34,402 nucleotides of DNA from a virus, in the IMG/VR virus record IMGVR_UViG_3300009164_000193, positions 1 through 34,402 of that record. One strand, given 5' to 3'. The translations under genes were made by a program, and so were the position numbers. Below, in pieces: positions 8,690 through 25,123 of this stretch (position 1 is its first letter; each line of letters begins with the position of its first letter). The notes under the pieces are model-generated. The model did not search any database and was not told where the DNA came from. It was given only the letters and a program-made list of their open reading frames with translations.

Positions 8690-10813
8690 TTAGCCTTGTG
8701 GTGGTGCTGGTGGTGCTGCCGGTGGAGGAGCGCCTTGTGGAGCGGCTGAGAATCCTTGTTCTCCGGGCACAGGAGCGGCTCCAACACCAATGTTGCCACC
8801 ACCCCCTCCAGACATGTCAGCGACTGATGGTGGGCCTCCTACCCCTTGTGGGGGAGTAGCTCCAGCAGGAGGTGCTGGCGGCTGTGTCTGCCGCAAGATT
8901 TCTGCCTGTCGCATTGCCTCGTCCATATTGTTTGTAACTTTGTCTGGGTCCAAATCCATTGCTTTTGCAATTTCTCTAATGATATACGGAAACTTAGCAA
9001 ATGGCATAAGAGAAGGACTACTAGCAATTTGTAAGAATTGCATAAGCCGTTGACTTCTCACTTCATTTGCCATCAAGCTTTCTGTACCTCTAGCATTAAT
9101 TTCCAAATCGCCTTTGATGGTTTGATCAAAGTCAAATTGCATATTAAAACTAAAGAATGCTTTTCCAATTGGTGAAAGCAAGTAGTCATCAAAGTTTTTA
9201 ATAACTGTCTTTATGCTACCGCCAGCGGCATTCATCAACATACTAATACCAGATGCTGTTCTACCTACACCACTTACACCTGTCTGTCCATGTGCGAAGG
9301 AAGGCATACCTGTTGATTCATCAGCCAATTGCCTAGCTTTATCAAAAAGCTGCAAATTTTCTTGCGAAACATTAGGAAACTTTGTTCCAAAAATAGCCTG
9401 TCCCGGTGCGCCACCTTGTCTTCTAAACACTTTGCCGGGAAACACTTGCATGTCTTGACCCGGAACCAAATTGGTTTCATCTACTTCAAAAACCAAATTA
9501 CCAGAAAGAACAGCATTATCTACAGCCATACGCATAAACCCATTCATTAGGGTTTGGGTGTCTTCCATATTCTCTGCAATGCCAACACCAGCAAGTGAAT
9601 ATGGATTAAGTTCATACGGAACAGCGTAATAAGGAATCTTTGCTGGTTTAAACGGGTTAAGTACAAATCTGATGATTTTTCCATTACAAAACCAAATGTT
9701 TGCTTGAAGTTCTTCTAGCTCTTGATATTCATCTGGAATATTAATGTCATTTTCTTCCAGCAAGTCAATATCAATATTGCCCCAATACTCTAGCACTTCA
9801 AATCTATCAACCCCAAAATTGGGCTGGTAGTCGCGGATATCGTCCTCCCAATACTTCTTAACATAGCCTTCGCCTTGTTCGATAATGTTGTCGATGACAT
9901 TGGCTCTGAAGAAGGGGCGACGTTTAAGAGCGCGAAGTTGGGTCCGACTAAGCTTATGTCTTTCAATGACGTATTGGCAGTTTTCAGTGTTGTTTGTGTC
10001 CGGGTCCCAATAGAAGTTCCATATACTGACATGCGAAGCTTCTGGCACTGTCTTGATACTAGGATTGTATTTACCATCCTCACCCCATCTTGGATATTCT
10101 TTATTTGTTGCAAACGGTCCTTTCATAACGCCAGTGCCAAACAAAGCACATTCAAAAGCCGCTGCTCTCAAATGTTTAGTTGCTCCGCTTTCATCTAGCT
10201 GGTCATGAATTTTCTTTTCCATTTTCTTTGCAGCAACCATTGCAGGATAGAAAGTTGCTGCTGTTGGCGTAGATCCAATACCTTCTTTAAGATTGGGAAT
10301 GTCTCCCAAATCTTCTTTAAGCGATCCCAAAAGGGTTTCCAATTGATCAAGACCAAACCCTGCGCCAATACCGGCGCTTCCTTCTTCTCCAAAAGGGATT
10401 TCAGTTGGAGATGTAGGAGCCGGTGGTTGATTGGTAGGGGCTTCTTTTGGATCAAAATGAACAGCCTCAACAACGCCTTCTGGAAGGACAGATGGATCTA
10501 CACTAAGAGGAAATTTATTGTTTGCAAAAAGAACATCTACAATTTGACCATAAGCAGCCAATACTTTTGTCTTGGTCACTTTAATAAATACACGAGATTT
10601 TTCAGTTTCAGTGAATTGAACATCAGAACTATAAATACCACGATAATTGCGATAGGCTCGCAACCACCTGTCTTCGTCTTTACGTCTGCTTTCTTCAGCT
10701 TTGCTATATCTTTGTTCAACAAAACTAATAACACTTTGAGCTTCTGGTGTAGCAAAAGACCCATCAGAAATATCATCTAGGGCCAATTGTTTATCAGTCA
10801 TCATATCTGCCAT
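8690..10813 (-). CDS. Portal protein
   Basis: 707 residues, the usual size for a podovirus portal. The N-terminal region has EESRRKDEDRWLRAYRNYRG, common in phage portals, followed by FIKVTKTKVLAAYGQIVDVL. A mid-protein region carries FYWDPDTNNTENCQYVIERH and NFGVDRFEVLEYWGNI. The helical region near residue 500-560 has MPSFAHGQTGVSGVGRTASG and SMLMNAAGGSIKTVIKNFDD, a portal pattern in the same place relative to the C-terminus. The tail is Pro/Gly/Ala-rich and probably disordered. The portal forms the dodecameric ring at the packaging vertex and docks terminase. It follows the terminase gene, with AGGAATAAATA before the ATG. Confidence 0.92.
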   Translation of the reverse strand: MADMMTDKQLALDDISDGSFATPEAQSVISFVEQRYSKAEESRRKDEDRWLRAYRNYRGIYSSDVQFTETEKSRVFIKVTKTKVLAAYGQIVDVLFANNKFPLSVDPSVLPEGVVEAVHFDPKEAPTNQPPAPTSPTEIPFGEEGSAGIGAGFGLDQLETLLGSLKEDLGDIPNLKEGIGSTPTAATFYPAMVAAKKMEKKIHDQLDESGATKHLRAAAFECALFGTGVMKGPFATNKEYPRWGEDGKYNPSIKTVPEASHVSIWNFYWDPDTNNTENCQYVIERHKLSRTQLRALKRRPFFRANVIDNIIEQGEGYVKKYWEDDIRDYQPNFGVDRFEVLEYWGNIDIDLLEENDINIPDEYQELEELQANIWFCNGKIIRFVLNPFKPAKIPYYAVPYELNPYSLAGVGIAENMEDTQTLMNGFMRMAVDNAVLSGNLVFEVDETNLVPGQDMQVFPGKVFRRQGGAPGQAIFGTKFPNVSQENLQLFDKARQLADESTGMPSFAHGQTGVSGVGRTASGISMLMNAAGGSIKTVIKNFDDYLLSPIGKAFFSFNMQFDFDQTIKGDLEINARGTESLMANEVRSQRLMQFLQIASSPSLMPFAKFPYIIREIAKAMDLDPDKVTNNMDEAMRQAEILRQTQPPAPPAGATPPQGVGGPPSVADMSGGGGGNIGVGAAPVPGEQGFSAAPQGAPPPAAPPAPPQG

Positions 10814-18347: not shown

Positions 18348-18454
18348 AAAGTAAAAACATTTACTTTTCATTGTTGCGATGACATAGAGCGAGCTAATAG
18401 ACTGTTACGCTATGTCATTTTATCCAATGCATGTTATCAATTAGCATGCATTGG
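18348..18454 (+). promoter_or_regulatory. Three consecutive hairpins before the plus-strand operon
   Basis: AAAGTAAA/TTTACTTT (18348-18355/18360-18367) has an 8-bp stem and 4-nt loop. ATGACATAG/CTATGTCAT (18379-18387/18410-18418) has a 9-bp stem, a 22-nt loop and is followed by TTTTAT. CCAATGCATG/CATGCATTGG (18424-18433/18445-18454) has a perfect 10-bp stem and 11-nt loop. They lie 53-159 bases before the first plus gene. They may form a structured leader, a terminator or operators. Confidence 0.45.
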
Positions 18455-18697: not shown

Positions 18698-19456
18698 ATG
18701 CAAACTCAATTCAAAACTCTGCTCTCTATTGATTCCAATGCAAAAACCGTTAAGGGTCAAGACATTGGGTTTTTAACTGGCATTCTTTACATGGCTCCCG
18801 CTGATTTATCTGGAAAGAATGTTTGTGCAATGGCAGAAAAGGCAAAATGCAAAGCGCCTTGTTTGTTTTTTGCTGGTCGCGGTGCTATGTCAAATGTTCA
18901 AATTGCTCGCATGAAAAAGACTGAATTGTTTTTCAGCGACCGCAATTACTTTATGCAATGTCTGGTTGAAGACATTTGCAAGCTTGTCAAAAAGGCTCGC
19001 AAAAAGAATTTGATTCCGTTGGTGCGATTGAATGGCACTAGCGATATCAAATACGAAAACATTAGTTTCACTGATGTTTGCGGTACGTTTTACAATAATA
19101 TAATGGAAGCGTTTCCCGGCGTTCAATTCTACGATTACACTAAGCTTTGCAATCGTCGCAATATCCCTGCTAATTACGATTTGACATTCTCTTATTCGGG
19201 TGTTGAAGAGTTTAGTCCATATGTTGCAAAGGCAATTCAATCAGGCATGCGGATTGCCGTTGTATTCAAAACGCAAGCAAGCATACCCACTATGTTTATG
19301 GGTATGCAATGCGTGGACGGTGACAATTCTGATGTGCGTCATTTAGATGACAAAGGCGTTGTCATTGCATTGTATGCAAAAGGCAAAGCAAAGACTGATA
19401 CCAGTGGTTTTGTTGTAGATATGGCAAAGGTTTTCCCTATTGCCATTGCCGCTTAA
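18698..19456 (+). CDS. GP88-like early phage protein
   Basis: 252 residues. The N-terminal part has KTLLSIDSNAKTVKGQDIGF, then LTGILYMAPADLSGKNVCAM, a pattern I know from the GP88 family of mycobacteriophage-type proteins. Cysteines at about 43, 51 and 55 (NVCAMAEKAKCKAPC) precede an AGRG motif, and a later LVRLNGTSDIKYE is the family's most recognisable block. The C-terminus carries VDGDNSDVRHLDD. The biochemical function of this family is unknown to me; the cysteine cluster could bind a metal. The ATG follows TAATCGGAAATTTTATT. The stop is followed at once by a 52-nt hairpin element. Confidence 0.7.
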   Translation: MQTQFKTLLSIDSNAKTVKGQDIGFLTGILYMAPADLSGKNVCAMAEKAKCKAPCLFFAGRGAMSNVQIARMKKTELFFSDRNYFMQCLVEDICKLVKKARKKNLIPLVRLNGTSDIKYENISFTDVCGTFYNNIMEAFPGVQFYDYTKLCNRRNIPANYDLTFSYSGVEEFSPYVAKAIQSGMRIAVVFKTQASIPTMFMGMQCVDGDNSDVRHLDDKGVVIALYAKGKAKTDTSGFVVDMAKVFPIAIAA

Positions 19457-19506
19457 AGCTTCAATGAATGGGCCGTTAGCAATAACGGCTCATTAGTGGG
19501 CGCTTT
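19455..19506 (+). ncRNA. 52-nt structured element, copy 1
   Basis: Starts inside the stop codon of the GP88-like gene (TAAAGC). It reads AAAGCTTCAATGAATGGG at the 5' side, a 16-base core, and CTCATTAGTGGGCGCTTT at the 3' side. AATGGGCCGTTA (19467-19478) pairs with TAACGGCTCATT (19483-19494) in a 12-bp stem (one G-U) capped by the GNRA loop GCAA. AAAGC can also pair with GCTTT at the ends. It has a same-length partner at 20931-20982. Confidence 0.6.
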
Positions 19507-19533
19507 ACTTTTTGTTTCTTTTCGGAGTTTATT

Positions 19534-20133
19534 ATGCAACAAGTCGAAATGTTGAAAAATGTTTTCCAAAAACTATCACAATCGGATCAAAACTTCGCGC
19601 AATCCCTGATTGACGGTTTTACTAAATACAATCGTTTGTCAGATAAACAACTCTATTGGGTTGATGTACTAACCAAGCGAGCCAATGGTGCAAAGCCAAT
19701 GGCATCAACTGAATTGGTTTCCGTTGTCGAAATTAAAAACCTTTTCGCTAAAGCCAGCAAGTCTTTAAAGCGAATGAAAATAAGACTTAAGACAACATTT
19801 AATCAAAATGTTGTTTTCACAATTGCTGGCGAGCGTAGTAAGTATGCTGGTCAAGTAATGATTACTGACGGTGGGCCATTCGGAGATAATATCTATTTTG
19901 GCAAAATTGACATGGAAGGTAATTTGCTAAAGACTGGGCGTTGTGATGACAATGTATTGGAATTGATCAAAGAGTTTGCCAATGATCCAGCCGAAACAGC
20001 CGGTAAATACGGTCGATTAACTGGCAATTGCTGTTTTTGCATGCGCGGTTTGGATGATGAAAGAAGTGTTTCAGTAGGTTATGGGCCGGTATGCGCTAAT
20101 CATTATGGTTTACCTTGGGGAGAAAAGCAATGA
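19534..20133 (+). CDS. DUF6011-like protein with C-terminal zinc-binding motif
   Basis: 199 residues. The C-terminal 35 residues have GKYGRLTGNCCFCMRGLDDE and then SVSVGYGPVCANHYGLPW, matching the DUF6011 pattern in which Cys pairs bind zinc. The middle has a beta-like block (FTIAGERSKYAGQVMITDGG). The N-terminus is helical. DUF6011 has no established function; the zinc motif suggests contact with nucleic acid or protein. It starts 27 bases after hairpin copy 1, with CGGAGTTTATT before the ATG. The stop shares the TGA of an ATGA junction with the next gene. Confidence 0.7.
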   Translation: MQQVEMLKNVFQKLSQSDQNFAQSLIDGFTKYNRLSDKQLYWVDVLTKRANGAKPMASTELVSVVEIKNLFAKASKSLKRMKIRLKTTFNQNVVFTIAGERSKYAGQVMITDGGPFGDNIYFGKIDMEGNLLKTGRCDDNVLELIKEFANDPAETAGKYGRLTGNCCFCMRGLDDERSVSVGYGPVCANHYGLPWGEKQ

Positions 20134-20330
20134 GTTTACGTTTAAAGTTTACATTTAAAAGCGACGACGAATCCCTTGTAGCTAAAGTTTATAGGGACAA
20201 CGAATGGGATGAATGGCGAGTTAAATTCTATCTCGATGGAATTCATCAAACCCTTTGCGATCATCATACCGATTGCGTTGATGATGCAAAAAACACCGCA
20301 TTAATTATTCTTGAAAGGGGCATGGTATGA
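20130..20330 (+). CDS. Small unrecognised phage protein
   Basis: 66 residues from ATG 20130, chosen because GGGGAGAAAAGCA precedes it and it overlaps the previous stop by ATGA. Reads MSLRLKFTFKSDDESLVAKV, then RDNEWDEWRVKFYLDGIHQT. Charged and beta-prone, no membrane segment. It also ends in ATGA into the next gene. A later, non-overlapping start is unlikely. Function unknown. Confidence 0.55.
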   Translation: MSLRLKFTFKSDDESLVAKVYRDNEWDEWRVKFYLDGIHQTLCDHHTDCVDDAKNTALIILERGMV

Positions 20331-20620
20331 AGCTTTATATCTACACACAATACGCTGAGAATTACGGATATCGTTGGAAATTCAAAGGTGGTAATGATTA
20401 TTTCATTCCATGCGGTCAAAGCATTACACCCGCAAGGGCTTATGCAATGGTTCAGTTGGCGAAAGCCAAAATTGAATATAAAAACGACGAAGCATCTGAG
20501 ACAATTATCGGATTTGAAATTGTCGAGGATGACTTTCAAACGGATTTTGTCCGTAGTCAATTAGAGCATGACGGTAAAATTGATTTCCCGACAAAAACTA
20601 TTTCAGTTAGTTTATTTTAA
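20327..20620 (+). CDS. Conserved phage protein of unknown function (YTQYAENYG)
   Basis: 97 residues. Reads MKLYIYTQYAENYGYRWKFK then GGNDYFIPCG; openings with YTQY-ENYG and a following GG-Y are known to me from other phage genomes without named role. The middle is helical (ARAYAMVQLAKAKIEYKN). Overlaps the previous gene at ATGA (20327-20330). A single cysteine is present. No enzymatic motif is visible. Confidence 0.5.
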   Translation: MKLYIYTQYAENYGYRWKFKGGNDYFIPCGQSITPARAYAMVQLAKAKIEYKNDEASETIIGFEIVEDDFQTDFVRSQLEHDGKIDFPTKTISVSLF

Positions 20621-20629
20621 GGAGACATT

Positions 20630-20719
20630 ATGTCAGACACTGAATTAATTATATCGGTGGTTGTTTTTGTTGTTGTATTCATTGGCAAATGTTATGCCAT
20701 TTCTAAACTGGGAGAATGA
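20630..20719 (+). CDS. 29-residue membrane peptide
   Basis: Reads MSDTELIISVVVFVVVFIGK and ends CYAISKLGE. A hydrophobic run of about 12 residues (IISVVVFVVVFIG) with charged ends suggests one membrane-spanning helix. AAGGAGACATT lies 7 bases before the ATG, so translation is well supported for so short a frame. It resembles other tiny membrane peptides in early phage operons; such peptides can alter the host envelope, but this one is unassigned. The next gene uses GGGAG inside its coding end. Confidence 0.55.
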   Translation: MSDTELIISVVVFVVVFIGKCYAISKLGE

Positions 20720-20722
20720 AAT

Positions 20723-20932
20723 ATGAATGAATTTGAATTGTTGGTTAAGGCCGTTGTCAAACGTCAAATGGCAAGAGATGGCGCTAGTCATTTAGATGCT
20801 CAAGCATTTACTGTTGGGTATTTAGCGGCTTTTGTTAGTGATAACCTAATTGAACGGGCAAAACCCGCTGAACGAAAGCGTATGCAAAAGGAAATACTTG
20901 ACCGATTGGATACAGTGTTATCCAGTCGATAA
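20723..20932 (+). CDS. Small helical early protein
   Basis: 69 residues, with GGGAG 7 bases before its ATG. Reads MNEFELLVKAVVKRQMARDG, then a mildly hydrophobic helix and a basic C-terminus (ERKRMQKEILDRLDTVLSSR). Helical and basic, no family recognised. Its TAA stop overlaps the first bases of hairpin copy 2, as in the GP88-like gene before copy 1. Function unknown. Confidence 0.5.
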   Translation: MNEFELLVKAVVKRQMARDGASHLDAQAFTVGYLAAFVSDNLIERAKPAERKRMQKEILDRLDTVLSSR

Positions 20933-20982
20933 AGCCTCAATGAATGGGAAAGTGTAAAAGCTTTCCCATTGGTGGATGCTTT
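20931..20982 (+). ncRNA. 52-nt structured element, copy 2
   Basis: Starts at the stop of the preceding gene. Reads AAAGCCTCAATGAATGGG, a 16-base core, and CCCATTGGTGGATGCTTT. AATGGGAAAG (20943-20952) pairs perfectly with CTTTCCCATT (20961-20970). Flanks match copy 1 in 17 of 18 and 14 of 18 positions, but the core is different and still self-complementary. Covariation with equal length suggests selection on the RNA fold. It ends 25 bases before the metallopeptidase ATG. Confidence 0.6.
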
Positions 20983-21007: not shown

Positions 21008-21517
21008 ATGGCACAATCAGATCGCACCATTTACGCTCGCATTAAAGCTTCGCCACAAGTATTGTATGCGTACAATACAAATTACAAAGAGCGTGTCCTT
21101 TATCGCGGCATTCTTTTCAATGCAATGTTGCGGGAATTTCACACACTATTAGACTTCGACAAAGACGTTACAATCAGGCTTTGTAAAATTAAAAGTCGAA
21201 GCGTTAGCGGTCGCTATTTTTCCAAAACTAAAGTGGTGGAATTGGAATATACAAATTGCATGGCAGAAATGACTGAATGGCTTGCCCATGAATTAGTCCA
21301 TGCGGAGCAATACCACACTAAAAAGCTTGAAGCTGTTTGGGTTGCTGGTAAAGGCTGGAAACAGACTTGGAATGGCAAAGTTTGCAATAACAAAGGCACA
21401 ACATATACTGCCTATCGCAATCAGCCGTGGGAACAAGAAGCATTTTCCCGTCAAAAGAAATTAGCAGACACTGTGTTTAATCGTTTGGTTAAACAGGGAT
21501 ATAAACTGGAGGCATAA
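21008..21517 (+). CDS. Phage zincin metallopeptidase-like protein
   Basis: 169 residues from ATG 21008, preferred to a GTG at 20969 that lies inside the hairpin element; GGAG is 10 bases upstream. Residues near 100 have EWLAHELVHAEQYH, a clear HExxH zinc site, and PWEQEAFSRQ about 40 residues later supplies a candidate third ligand Glu. This layout is that of a minimal gluzincin-like fold. A protease acting on host proteins during early infection would be consistent, but substrate is unknown. The strand after the site has KTRWKQTW-type basic residues. Metal-binding is inferred from motif alone. Confidence 0.6.
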   Translation: MAQSDRTIYARIKASPQVLYAYNTNYKERVLYRGILFNAMLREFHTLLDFDKDVTIRLCKIKSRSVSGRYFSKTKVVELEYTNCMAEMTEWLAHELVHAEQYHTKKLEAVWVAGKGWKQTWNGKVCNNKGTTYTAYRNQPWEQEAFSRQKKLADTVFNRLVKQGYKLEA

Positions 21518-21518
21518 A

Positions 21519-21668
21519 ATTAAAAAGAGAAAACGTAAATTGACAAAGCCCGATGCCAGAGCGCATTGGGTTTTGTTTCATAAGGCTTCGCCGTTCAAGC
21601 CTAAAAAGACTGGCAAAAAGGATGTCTTTAAATTTAAAGGGAAAGATGATGATGCAGATAGAAGTTAA
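21519..21668 (+). CDS. Small basic protein with a non-ATG start
   Basis: The frame is open from the codon after GGAGG (21508-21512). An ATT at 21519 lies 6 bases after GGAGG and yields 49 residues (MKKRKRKLTKPDARAHWVLF if ATT is read as Met). A TTG at 21540 gives 42. The product is about one third Lys/Arg, like small basic phage proteins. It overlaps the next gene in another frame by 20 bases. ATT starts are rare, so the exact start is unsure, but the basic composition and the strong ribosome site argue that the frame is used. Confidence 0.45.
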   Translation: MKKRKRKLTKPDARAHWVLFHKASPFKPKKTGKKDVFKFKGKDDDADRS

Positions 21669-24176: not shown

Positions 24177-24303
24177 TAATCCACAAGACTTAGCACAAAG
24201 ACGCAAGCAATTAAAGCGCATAGAAATATGGCTTGCCGCTTTCATAAAGAAAGCATATCCACATCCTTTTAATATTGCAGGAATAACTAATGACGTTAGA
24301 TGA
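24166..24303 (+). CDS. Small basic protein before the ADP-ribosylhydrolase
   Basis: 45 residues from ATG 24166. Begins MKGDNPQDLAQRRKQLKRIE, a basic helix, then WLAAFIKKAYPHPFNIAG. It overlaps the previous gene by 11 bases and the next by 14, so its frame is a link in the chain. No named family. The alternative is that the region is only a spacer; the overlap and ribosome-site pattern (AAAGAAA only) make this weak. Confidence 0.35.
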   Translation: MKGDNPQDLAQRRKQLKRIEIWLAAFIKKAYPHPFNIAGITNDVR

Positions 24304-25123
24304 ATCTATGGGTTGTTTTATTGGTGGTGCTATTGGTGATGCATTGGGAGGGCCTGTAGAGTTTAAAACTGGAGGCTCTTTCCCACTTGTTACTGAAATG
24401 ATTGGTGGTGGTGCTTTTAATTTAGCTATTGGTGAATGGACAGACGATACAGCAATGGCGATATGCATTGCTGACGCTTATATCAAATCACGGCGATTTA
24501 ATTCTTCTGCTATTGTACACAATTTCCAATTGTGGTTGGATAATGGAAGCTTTGGAACTAGAGATCATTGTTTTGATGTAGGCGTTACTACGCACAATAG
24601 TTTGTTTAATGCAACCGAAAGGCGTCCTTATGCCGGGGAGAATGTCAAAGATGCTTCTGGTAATGGTTCTATTATGCGTTCCGCACCTATTGCCATATTC
24701 AATTGGAGAAATCCTTATGACGCGGTTGCTGATGGTATTGCATGCTCTTTAATCACTCATGGTAATACTGACACAATTCGTTACATGACAGCATGGATGG
24801 CAGAATTGTTAGAAGGAAAGCAAATAGAACAATTCTATCGGCTTCGCCCATATAACTTTAGGCAAGAGAACGGAAAGGGTTCTATTATGTATGCATACAA
24901 TAGAGCATGGGATTGTGTTTTGTCTACAAGTTCTTTTGAAGAAGCTGTTGTCAAAGCCGTTAATTTTGGTGATGACGCTGATACCGTTGGTGCTGTTACA
25001 GGCATTCTTGCTGGTAGAATATATGGATACAAAAACATTCCACAACGCTGGCTTGATAAACTATTTCAGCTAAAATATCTAGAGAGGATTACTCGCATTT
25101 TACATTCTATAGGACATCTATGA
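24290..25123 (+). CDS. ADP-ribosylglycohydrolase (DraG/ARH family)
   Basis: 277 residues, full length for the family. GAIGDALGGPVEF at 13-25 and TDDTA at 51-55 form the N-terminal metal-binding half; GNGSIMRSAPI at 124-134 follows; GDDADTVGAVTG at 227-238 forms the C-terminal metal site. These Asp/Thr motifs bind the two Mg or Mn ions that cleave ADP-ribose from modified residues. Every hallmark motif is intact, so activity is likely. Phages carry such enzymes to reverse or control ADP-ribosylation in infected cells; a role against host ADP-ribosylating defence is possible. GCAGGAATAACTA precedes the ATG; ATGA links it to the next gene. Confidence 0.9.
   Translation: MTLDESMGCFIGGAIGDALGGPVEFKTGGSFPLVTEMIGGGAFNLAIGEWTDDTAMAICIADAYIKSRRFNSSAIVHNFQLWLDNGSFGTRDHCFDVGVTTHNSLFNATERRPYAGENVKDASGNGSIMRSAPIAIFNWRNPYDAVADGIACSLITHGNTDTIRYMTAWMAELLEGKQIEQFYRLRPYNFRQENGKGSIMYAYNRAWDCVLSTSSFEEAVVKAVNFGDDADTVGAVTGILAGRIYGYKNIPQRWLDKLFQLKYLERITRILHSIGHL

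Follow-up and report, generated by a model that had tools for sequence, protein, structure and literature searches.

A covarying hairpin family at gene boundaries of gp88-carrying phages, and its possible part in mRNA processing

The described RNA elements closest to those considered here are the RNase III sites of the T7 early mRNAs (R0.3, R0.5, R1, R1.1, and R1.3), which are intergenic and consist of conserved flanks (CUCAAGG...CCUUUAUGAU) around a variable apex, the loop being GCAA in two of them, R0.3 and R1.1. The RNA of site R1.1, which measures 60 nt and contains a 4/5 internal loop, is cut in the maturation and protection of T7 mRNAs; for RNase III itself, a stem of 12 bp capped by a tetraloop suffices (PMC6121014; PMC8708148). 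Intergenic phage hammerheads, for their part, have been reported in PaP3 and Bcep176 (PMC3088659), whereas the exchange of such modules in equivalent slots does not figure in the portion of the literature covered.

The DNA that we analyzed—hereafter the window—is the whole of a 34,402-nucleotide virus record (IMG/VR IMGVR_UViG_3300009164_000193), in which two elements lie at gene boundaries of a rightward operon (Table 1), a scan of the entire 34-kb record yielding no copies beyond these. The initial annotation had pointed out their equal length of 52 nt and common register at a TAA, a start codon 25–27 bases further on, and a CGGAG ribosome site, all of which we could confirm: the last two bases of the upstream stop codon are the first two of each element, the distance from the end of the element to the ATG is 27 nt for element 1 and 25 nt for element 2, and the SD regions read TTCGGAG and GCCGGAG, respectively. 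The conservation noted in the outer 18 bases likewise held (17 of 18 matching on the 5' side, 14 of 18 on the 3' side), as did the differing yet self-complementary 16-base middles (CCGTTAGCAATAACGG in element 1, AAAGTGTAAAAGCTTT in element 2) and the suggestion that AAAGC...GCTTT closes the outer stem, which pairing forms part of P1 in both elements. That architecture can be refined in two respects: the upper stem, P2, reaches beyond the 16-nt middle alone to 12 bp including AATGGG, and the lower stem comprises 8 positions together with a 4x4 near-paired segment. The product of the gene downstream of element 2 may be metalloprotease-like, to judge by its HELVH motif only.

Table 1. Positions of the window elements and their neighbours, and of the hammerheads and GCG/CAG hairpins in other gp88 loci.
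Feature	Sequence	Position	Strand	Remarks
gp88-family gene (PF17338)	Window	18698–19456	+	Upstream neighbour of element 1
TAA stop of gene upstream of element 1	Window	19454–19456	+	
Element 1	Window	19455–19506	+	Slot between gp88 gene and DUF6011 gene; 80.4 bits
Element 1, parts	Window			P1 AAAGC-U-UC / GG-C-GCUUU; near-paired AAUG/AGUG; P2 AAUGGGCCGUUA / UAACGGCUCAUU; GCAA loop
DUF6011-domain gene (PF19474)	Window	19534–20133	+	Downstream neighbour of element 1; SD CGGAG ahead
69-aa gene	Window	20723–20932	+	Upstream neighbour of element 2
TAA stop of gene upstream of element 2	Window	20930–20932	+	
Element 2	Window	20931–20982	+	Slot before HELVH-motif protein gene; 70.6 bits
Element 2, parts	Window			P1 AAAGC-C-UC / GA-U-GCUUU; AAUG/GGUG; P2 AAUGGGAAAG(U) / (G)CUUUCCCAUU; loop GUAAAA
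169-aa gene with HELVH motif	Window	21008–21517	+	Downstream neighbour of element 2; SD CGGAG ahead
Hammerhead array/copies	L246	470–3239		Between small genes around gp88
Hammerhead array/copies	L248	4602–6524		Between small genes around gp88
Hammerhead array/copies	L252	6331–6684		Between small genes around gp88
Hammerhead array/copies	L290	5864–5915		Between small genes around gp88
GCG/CAG hairpins	L252	5726, 6037, 7467, 7755		Model R3
GCG/CAG hairpin	L246	2689		Model R3
GCG/CAG hairpin	L251	5719		Model R3
GCG/CAG hairpin	L253	5740		Model R3
GCG/CAG hairpin	L238	8529		Model R3
GCG/CAG hairpin	L294	1531		Model R3
GCG/CAG hairpin, weaker	L255	1515		Model R3
GCG/CAG hairpin, weaker	L258	1833		Model R3

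Taken alone, each element folds into one long hairpin (-24.0 kcal/mol for element 1, -25.5 kcal/mol for element 2), with z-scores of -5.7 and -6.9, respectively, against dinucleotide shuffles. With longer flanks these z-scores drop to -1.8 and -3.6; in that context element 2 retains the whole hairpin, and the minimum-energy fold of element 1 retains P2 and exchanges P1 for a competing pairing with the flanks. The hairpin family consists of the 12-bp upper stem, in most cases capped by a GCAA loop, atop a lower stem that has conserved mismatches at fixed places, in the order C-G, A•G, A-U, an invariant U•G, and S•N. Over nine distinct sequences 95% of the cells are paired, which proportion falls to about 40% upon sliding the pairing register; compensatory double-sided changes occur in 11 of the 21 pairs, and eight pairs are invariant. 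None of 500 shuffles did as well as the real alignment, the covariation score being 0.411 vs 0.208 in the shuffles. Because the MAFFT alignment shifts P2 of L436_1 and L424_1, pairs 21-34, 23-32, and 25-30 of those two copies are scored as broken, though they close by hand. When the pairing is written out by hand, the hairpin spans 23–24 pair positions, with a mismatch at position 6 in eight of the nine sequences (pyrimidine-pyrimidine in all eight), an A-G at position 9 in 9/9, a U-G at position 11 that is invariant (9/9), and a mismatch at position 12 in 7/9; the core CAAUS / NGUGG is nearly invariant, P2 and parts of P1 varying freely. G-U pairs, which the complementary strand could not form, account for 24 of the 214 cells, and those pairs, the invariant U•G included, show that selection acts on RNA of the strand that the flanking genes are read from, and disfavour an antisense or a DNA reading. 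The earlier proposal of selection on RNA structure, made from two copies, is thus supported by the covariation of nine sequences together with the sense-strand G-U pairs.

At least five related viral contigs carry the element, in one or two copies per contig, the nine different sequences including those of the window. The 58-kb contig L001/G001 has the same two elements with identical sequence, its flanking genes being 89–98% identical to those of the window and both intergenic gaps 100%. Both elements are also present in L099, where element 1 differs by one change, and element 2 has its apex replaced by AAUAAGUCGUUA-GCAA-UAGCGGCUUAUU, which apex is fully paired though the gap is only 79% identical. 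L100 has one element, upstream of gp88, with P1 and P2 both different, and two elements apiece are present in L424 and L436, the first in front of gp88 and the second in the third of the slots described below. Model R2 retrieved 11 copies in six virus records (E 1e-12 to 1e-17), which copies are its own building sequences and others identical to them, and scored 59–78 bits on the sense vs 26–39 bits on the reverse strand. A covariance-model search of homologous phages had been suggested as a check, and within the clade it met with no case of unconserved stems. Models R1 and R2 gave no significant match in 80 other gp88 loci, so that the element looks clade-restricted and, among the matches listed, confined to one clade of freshwater phages; R2 likewise found no match in 399 genomes of one order, in a search run without a positive control. 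The pattern AAAGCNTCANTGAATGG occurred in 95 stretches of viral contigs, the stems being absent in all but the known relative, and in 14 places in bacterial genomes, with the stems in none. That no named RNA family fits, as the initial annotation held, agrees with the 0 Rfam matches in the window at the gathering threshold and with the absence of any hit at either element at relaxed thresholds; the covariation-supported RNA family added here is new to Rfam. In more distant gp88 phages the element is absent, and some of the slots hold other structures. One such locus, L238 (MW202701), has at 9342–9395, after gp88, a long but different hairpin in which GTGGGG lies close to the 3' arm; this hairpin was recovered by neither R1 nor R2 and is possibly a diverged member of the family.

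Within the clade the element occupies three slots: before gp88 (slot 1), between gp88 and the next gene (slot 2), and, farther down, ahead of the HELVH gene (slot 3), in place of which gene L424 has one that is ASCH-like, as named from its sequence. All copies overlap a stop codon or lie at most 5 nt from one, and stand 11–35 nt ahead of the next ATG. U-tracts (GUUUUCUUUUUUG, GUUUUUUUUG, GCUUUACUUUUUG) come after the copies in slots 1 and 2, and because of these tracts the main rival explanation—though in our estimation an unlikely one—is an intrinsic terminator or attenuator that would tune expression down the operon by means of a hairpin and a U-rich stretch. Intrinsic terminators share with the element a stable hairpin and A-rich/U-rich ends, all members having an A-rich 5' arm and a U-rich 3' arm in P1; furthermore, slot 2 of L100, L424, and L436 holds, instead of the element, a terminator-like hairpin (AGCCGTTAGCAATAACGGCT-TTTCTTTTTT), namely GCCGTTA-GCAA-TAACGGC plus a U-tract, whose apex is that of element 1. 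The slot 3 copies, however, all lack a U-tract (GCUUUGUUUAACC, GCUUUAAGGAAAU), so that the combination of hairpin and U run is missing there and present only in part in slots 1 and 2, and a hairpin of 24 positions, with its conserved core and long, mismatched lower stem, does not resemble a terminator. A terminator scan, moreover, did not call the full element: at element 1 it reported nothing but an alternative hairpin of 5 bp, and over the region it made as many calls as expected by chance.

Inspection of the intergenic gaps next to gp88 in homologous loci, followed by a core scan, brought to light type I hammerheads in metagenomic phages—four in L246, five in L248, two in L252, and one in L290—with complete cores and a 6-bp stem I, up to five of them in a row; core-scan matches in L043 and L154 look like chance. 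The Rfam model Hammerhead_1 matched the L252 copies with E=2e-5, two bits below the curated cut-off, and the L246 hammerheads gave weaker matches to hammerhead models, well below the Rfam cut-off. A second, unrelated hairpin family with a GCG/CAG core has 11 of 17 pairs covarying; four of its members occur in the L252 operon with two hammerheads between them, and one in the L246 operon along with four hammerheads. This family resembles the window element in its order of P1, small conserved internal segment, and P2, in its strong covariation, and in its overlap with stop codons, and differs from it in the core, in the clade, and in co-occurring with hammerheads. The hammerheads lie about 10 nt or less from the stop codon, where one is identified, and mostly some 20–26 nt before the next start; indeed, all three kinds of structure are for the most part spaced alike relative to stop and start codons, except for a few GCG/CAG and hammerhead copies that are 54–61 nt from the next ATG or have no clear stop or start assignment. 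The slot geometry of the hammerheads is thus that of the window element, but their core is absent from it and the phages that carry them are others; no genome turned up that combines a window-type element with a hammerhead, the GCG/CAG hairpins alone co-occurring with the latter, and the equivalence of the slots therefore rests on position. Hammerheads are, as a class, self-cutting RNAs, and cutting of the transcript at gene boundaries is therefore probable in some, at least, of these phages.

Among the functions that the initial annotation had offered—leader, processing site, or protein target—the processing site appears to fit best, in view of the slot geometry, the T7 precedent, and the hammerheads in equivalent slots. 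We propose, with no more than moderate confidence, that the element is an intergenic mRNA-processing site working like the T7 RNase III sites and probably cut by the host RNase III, a kind of function that by our comparison would be already known from T7. As do the T7 sites, the element stands between genes, is repeated in the operon, joins an upper stem through an interruption to a lower paired part, combines conserved flanks with a variable apex, and has the ribosome site of the next gene just beyond; gene order and strand place it close after a stop in a polycistronic operon, and its 23–24 positions, with mismatches at 6, 9, and 12, make a hairpin of about two helical turns. On the strength of this anatomy, which comes without a ribozyme core, an RNase III-type site is favoured. 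The lower part, though, is nearly symmetrical and regularly mismatched where T7 has the 4/5 internal loop, the start overlaps a stop codon, and the sequence is different, with neither CUCAAGG...CCUUUAUGAU nor the same core; we therefore file the element as working like the T7 sites and not as a member of them.

Under the proposed mechanism both elements would be copies of one family of cis-acting hairpins, located where cistrons adjoin in the rightward early transcript. Just past the stop codon the long transcript would form a duplex of some 24 pair positions, in or near whose mismatched lower part a host endonuclease, most probably RNase III, would cut; the upstream message would keep a stable, usually GNRA-capped hairpin as its 3' end, and the downstream gene would gain a short leader of a few tens of nucleotides with its ribosome site free, which changes might affect message stability and translation. 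Against cleavage of this kind stand the terminator-like hairpin in the place of the element in slot 2 of three contigs, the mere two copies in the window—fewer than in T7—and the replacement of P1 of element 1 in the longer-context minimum-energy fold. In addition, RNase III does not need a conserved sequence, so that the CAAU/GUGG core has no evident reason to be so strict unless it is read by a protein.

The near-invariance of CAAUS/NGUGG amid a freely changing P2 and parts of P1 in fact resembles a footprint, and the slot is directly upstream of the SD, as would suit a translational operator or stabiliser to which a protein of phage or host binds with no cleavage. We regard this reading as rather improbable: the SD lies outside the hairpin, no candidate protein was identified, and the downstream genes differ (DUF6011, HELVH protein, gp88, and ASCH-like in L424), which diversity makes a single operator logic less natural.

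Still more doubtful is an antitermination element of the nut, put, or rrn-boxB kind, as repeated sense-strand hairpins with a conserved internal segment within a long operon might suggest. The GCG/CAG model matched one host site, L472 (G226:C11:17538-17578), apparently within a bacterial 16S–23S rRNA spacer; the hairpin of that type found there has a tRNA-Ala-like 3' end on one side and a boxA-like TGCTCTTTAACAA on the other, and is possibly a boxB or a processing hairpin to which those of the phages bear a resemblance. That match, however, belongs to the other hairpin family and was not reproduced in other genome assemblies, and nothing resembling boxA is conserved downstream of the window-type elements.

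We consider a new small self-cleaving ribozyme very unlikely: the slots hold hammerheads in related phages, and a conserved mismatched core does sit between two variable stems, but that near-paired core is very small, neither a second loop nor a pseudoknot was seen, and no Rfam ribozyme model matches. A hammerhead identity was rejected, the core CUGANGA ... GAAA ... UH with three stems being absent from the window in a core scan and Rfam giving none at the elements. A DNA-level element—a mobile cassette boundary, or a recombination or replication site—is scarcely credible: in its favour, L424 keeps the element in slot 3 while the surrounding genes differ, but the sense-strand G-U pairs, one of them invariant, favour RNA over a cruciform, the reverse strand scores far lower with the model, and a PeSL cassette of promoter plus stem-loop can be set aside because no + strand sigma-70-like site, the one type sought, lies between element and start codon.

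To return to the preferred processing reading, related phages appear to give the same cutting job to hammerheads in the same position. The surprising part is that unrelated RNA modules, ribozymes included, would be exchanged in equivalent gene-boundary slots, as their positions suggest. An extension of this idea, which we advance as speculation of low probability, is that the gp88-group phages follow a general scheme of exchangeable RNA-cutting modules at gene boundaries, the window element being a third, undescribed module and possibly a new self-cleaving RNA. The old question of the purpose of bacterial hammerheads may thereby become testable as mRNA processing between cistrons, with the natural replacements as controls.

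Other features of the window deserve mention in their own right. Near the start of the rightward operon a stable hairpin, CCAATGCATG...CATGCATTGG, followed by CGGTGTTTATAGG, occupies 18424–18454, and L100 has a similar one with a changed stem. A 14-bp hairpin (ACAAAGCCCGATGC / GCATTGGGTTTTGT) lies at 21536–21590, stop-proximal and directly past the HELVH-protein gene, and a phage ADP-ribosylglycohydrolase gene (PF03747, E 2e-56) extends over 24290–25123.
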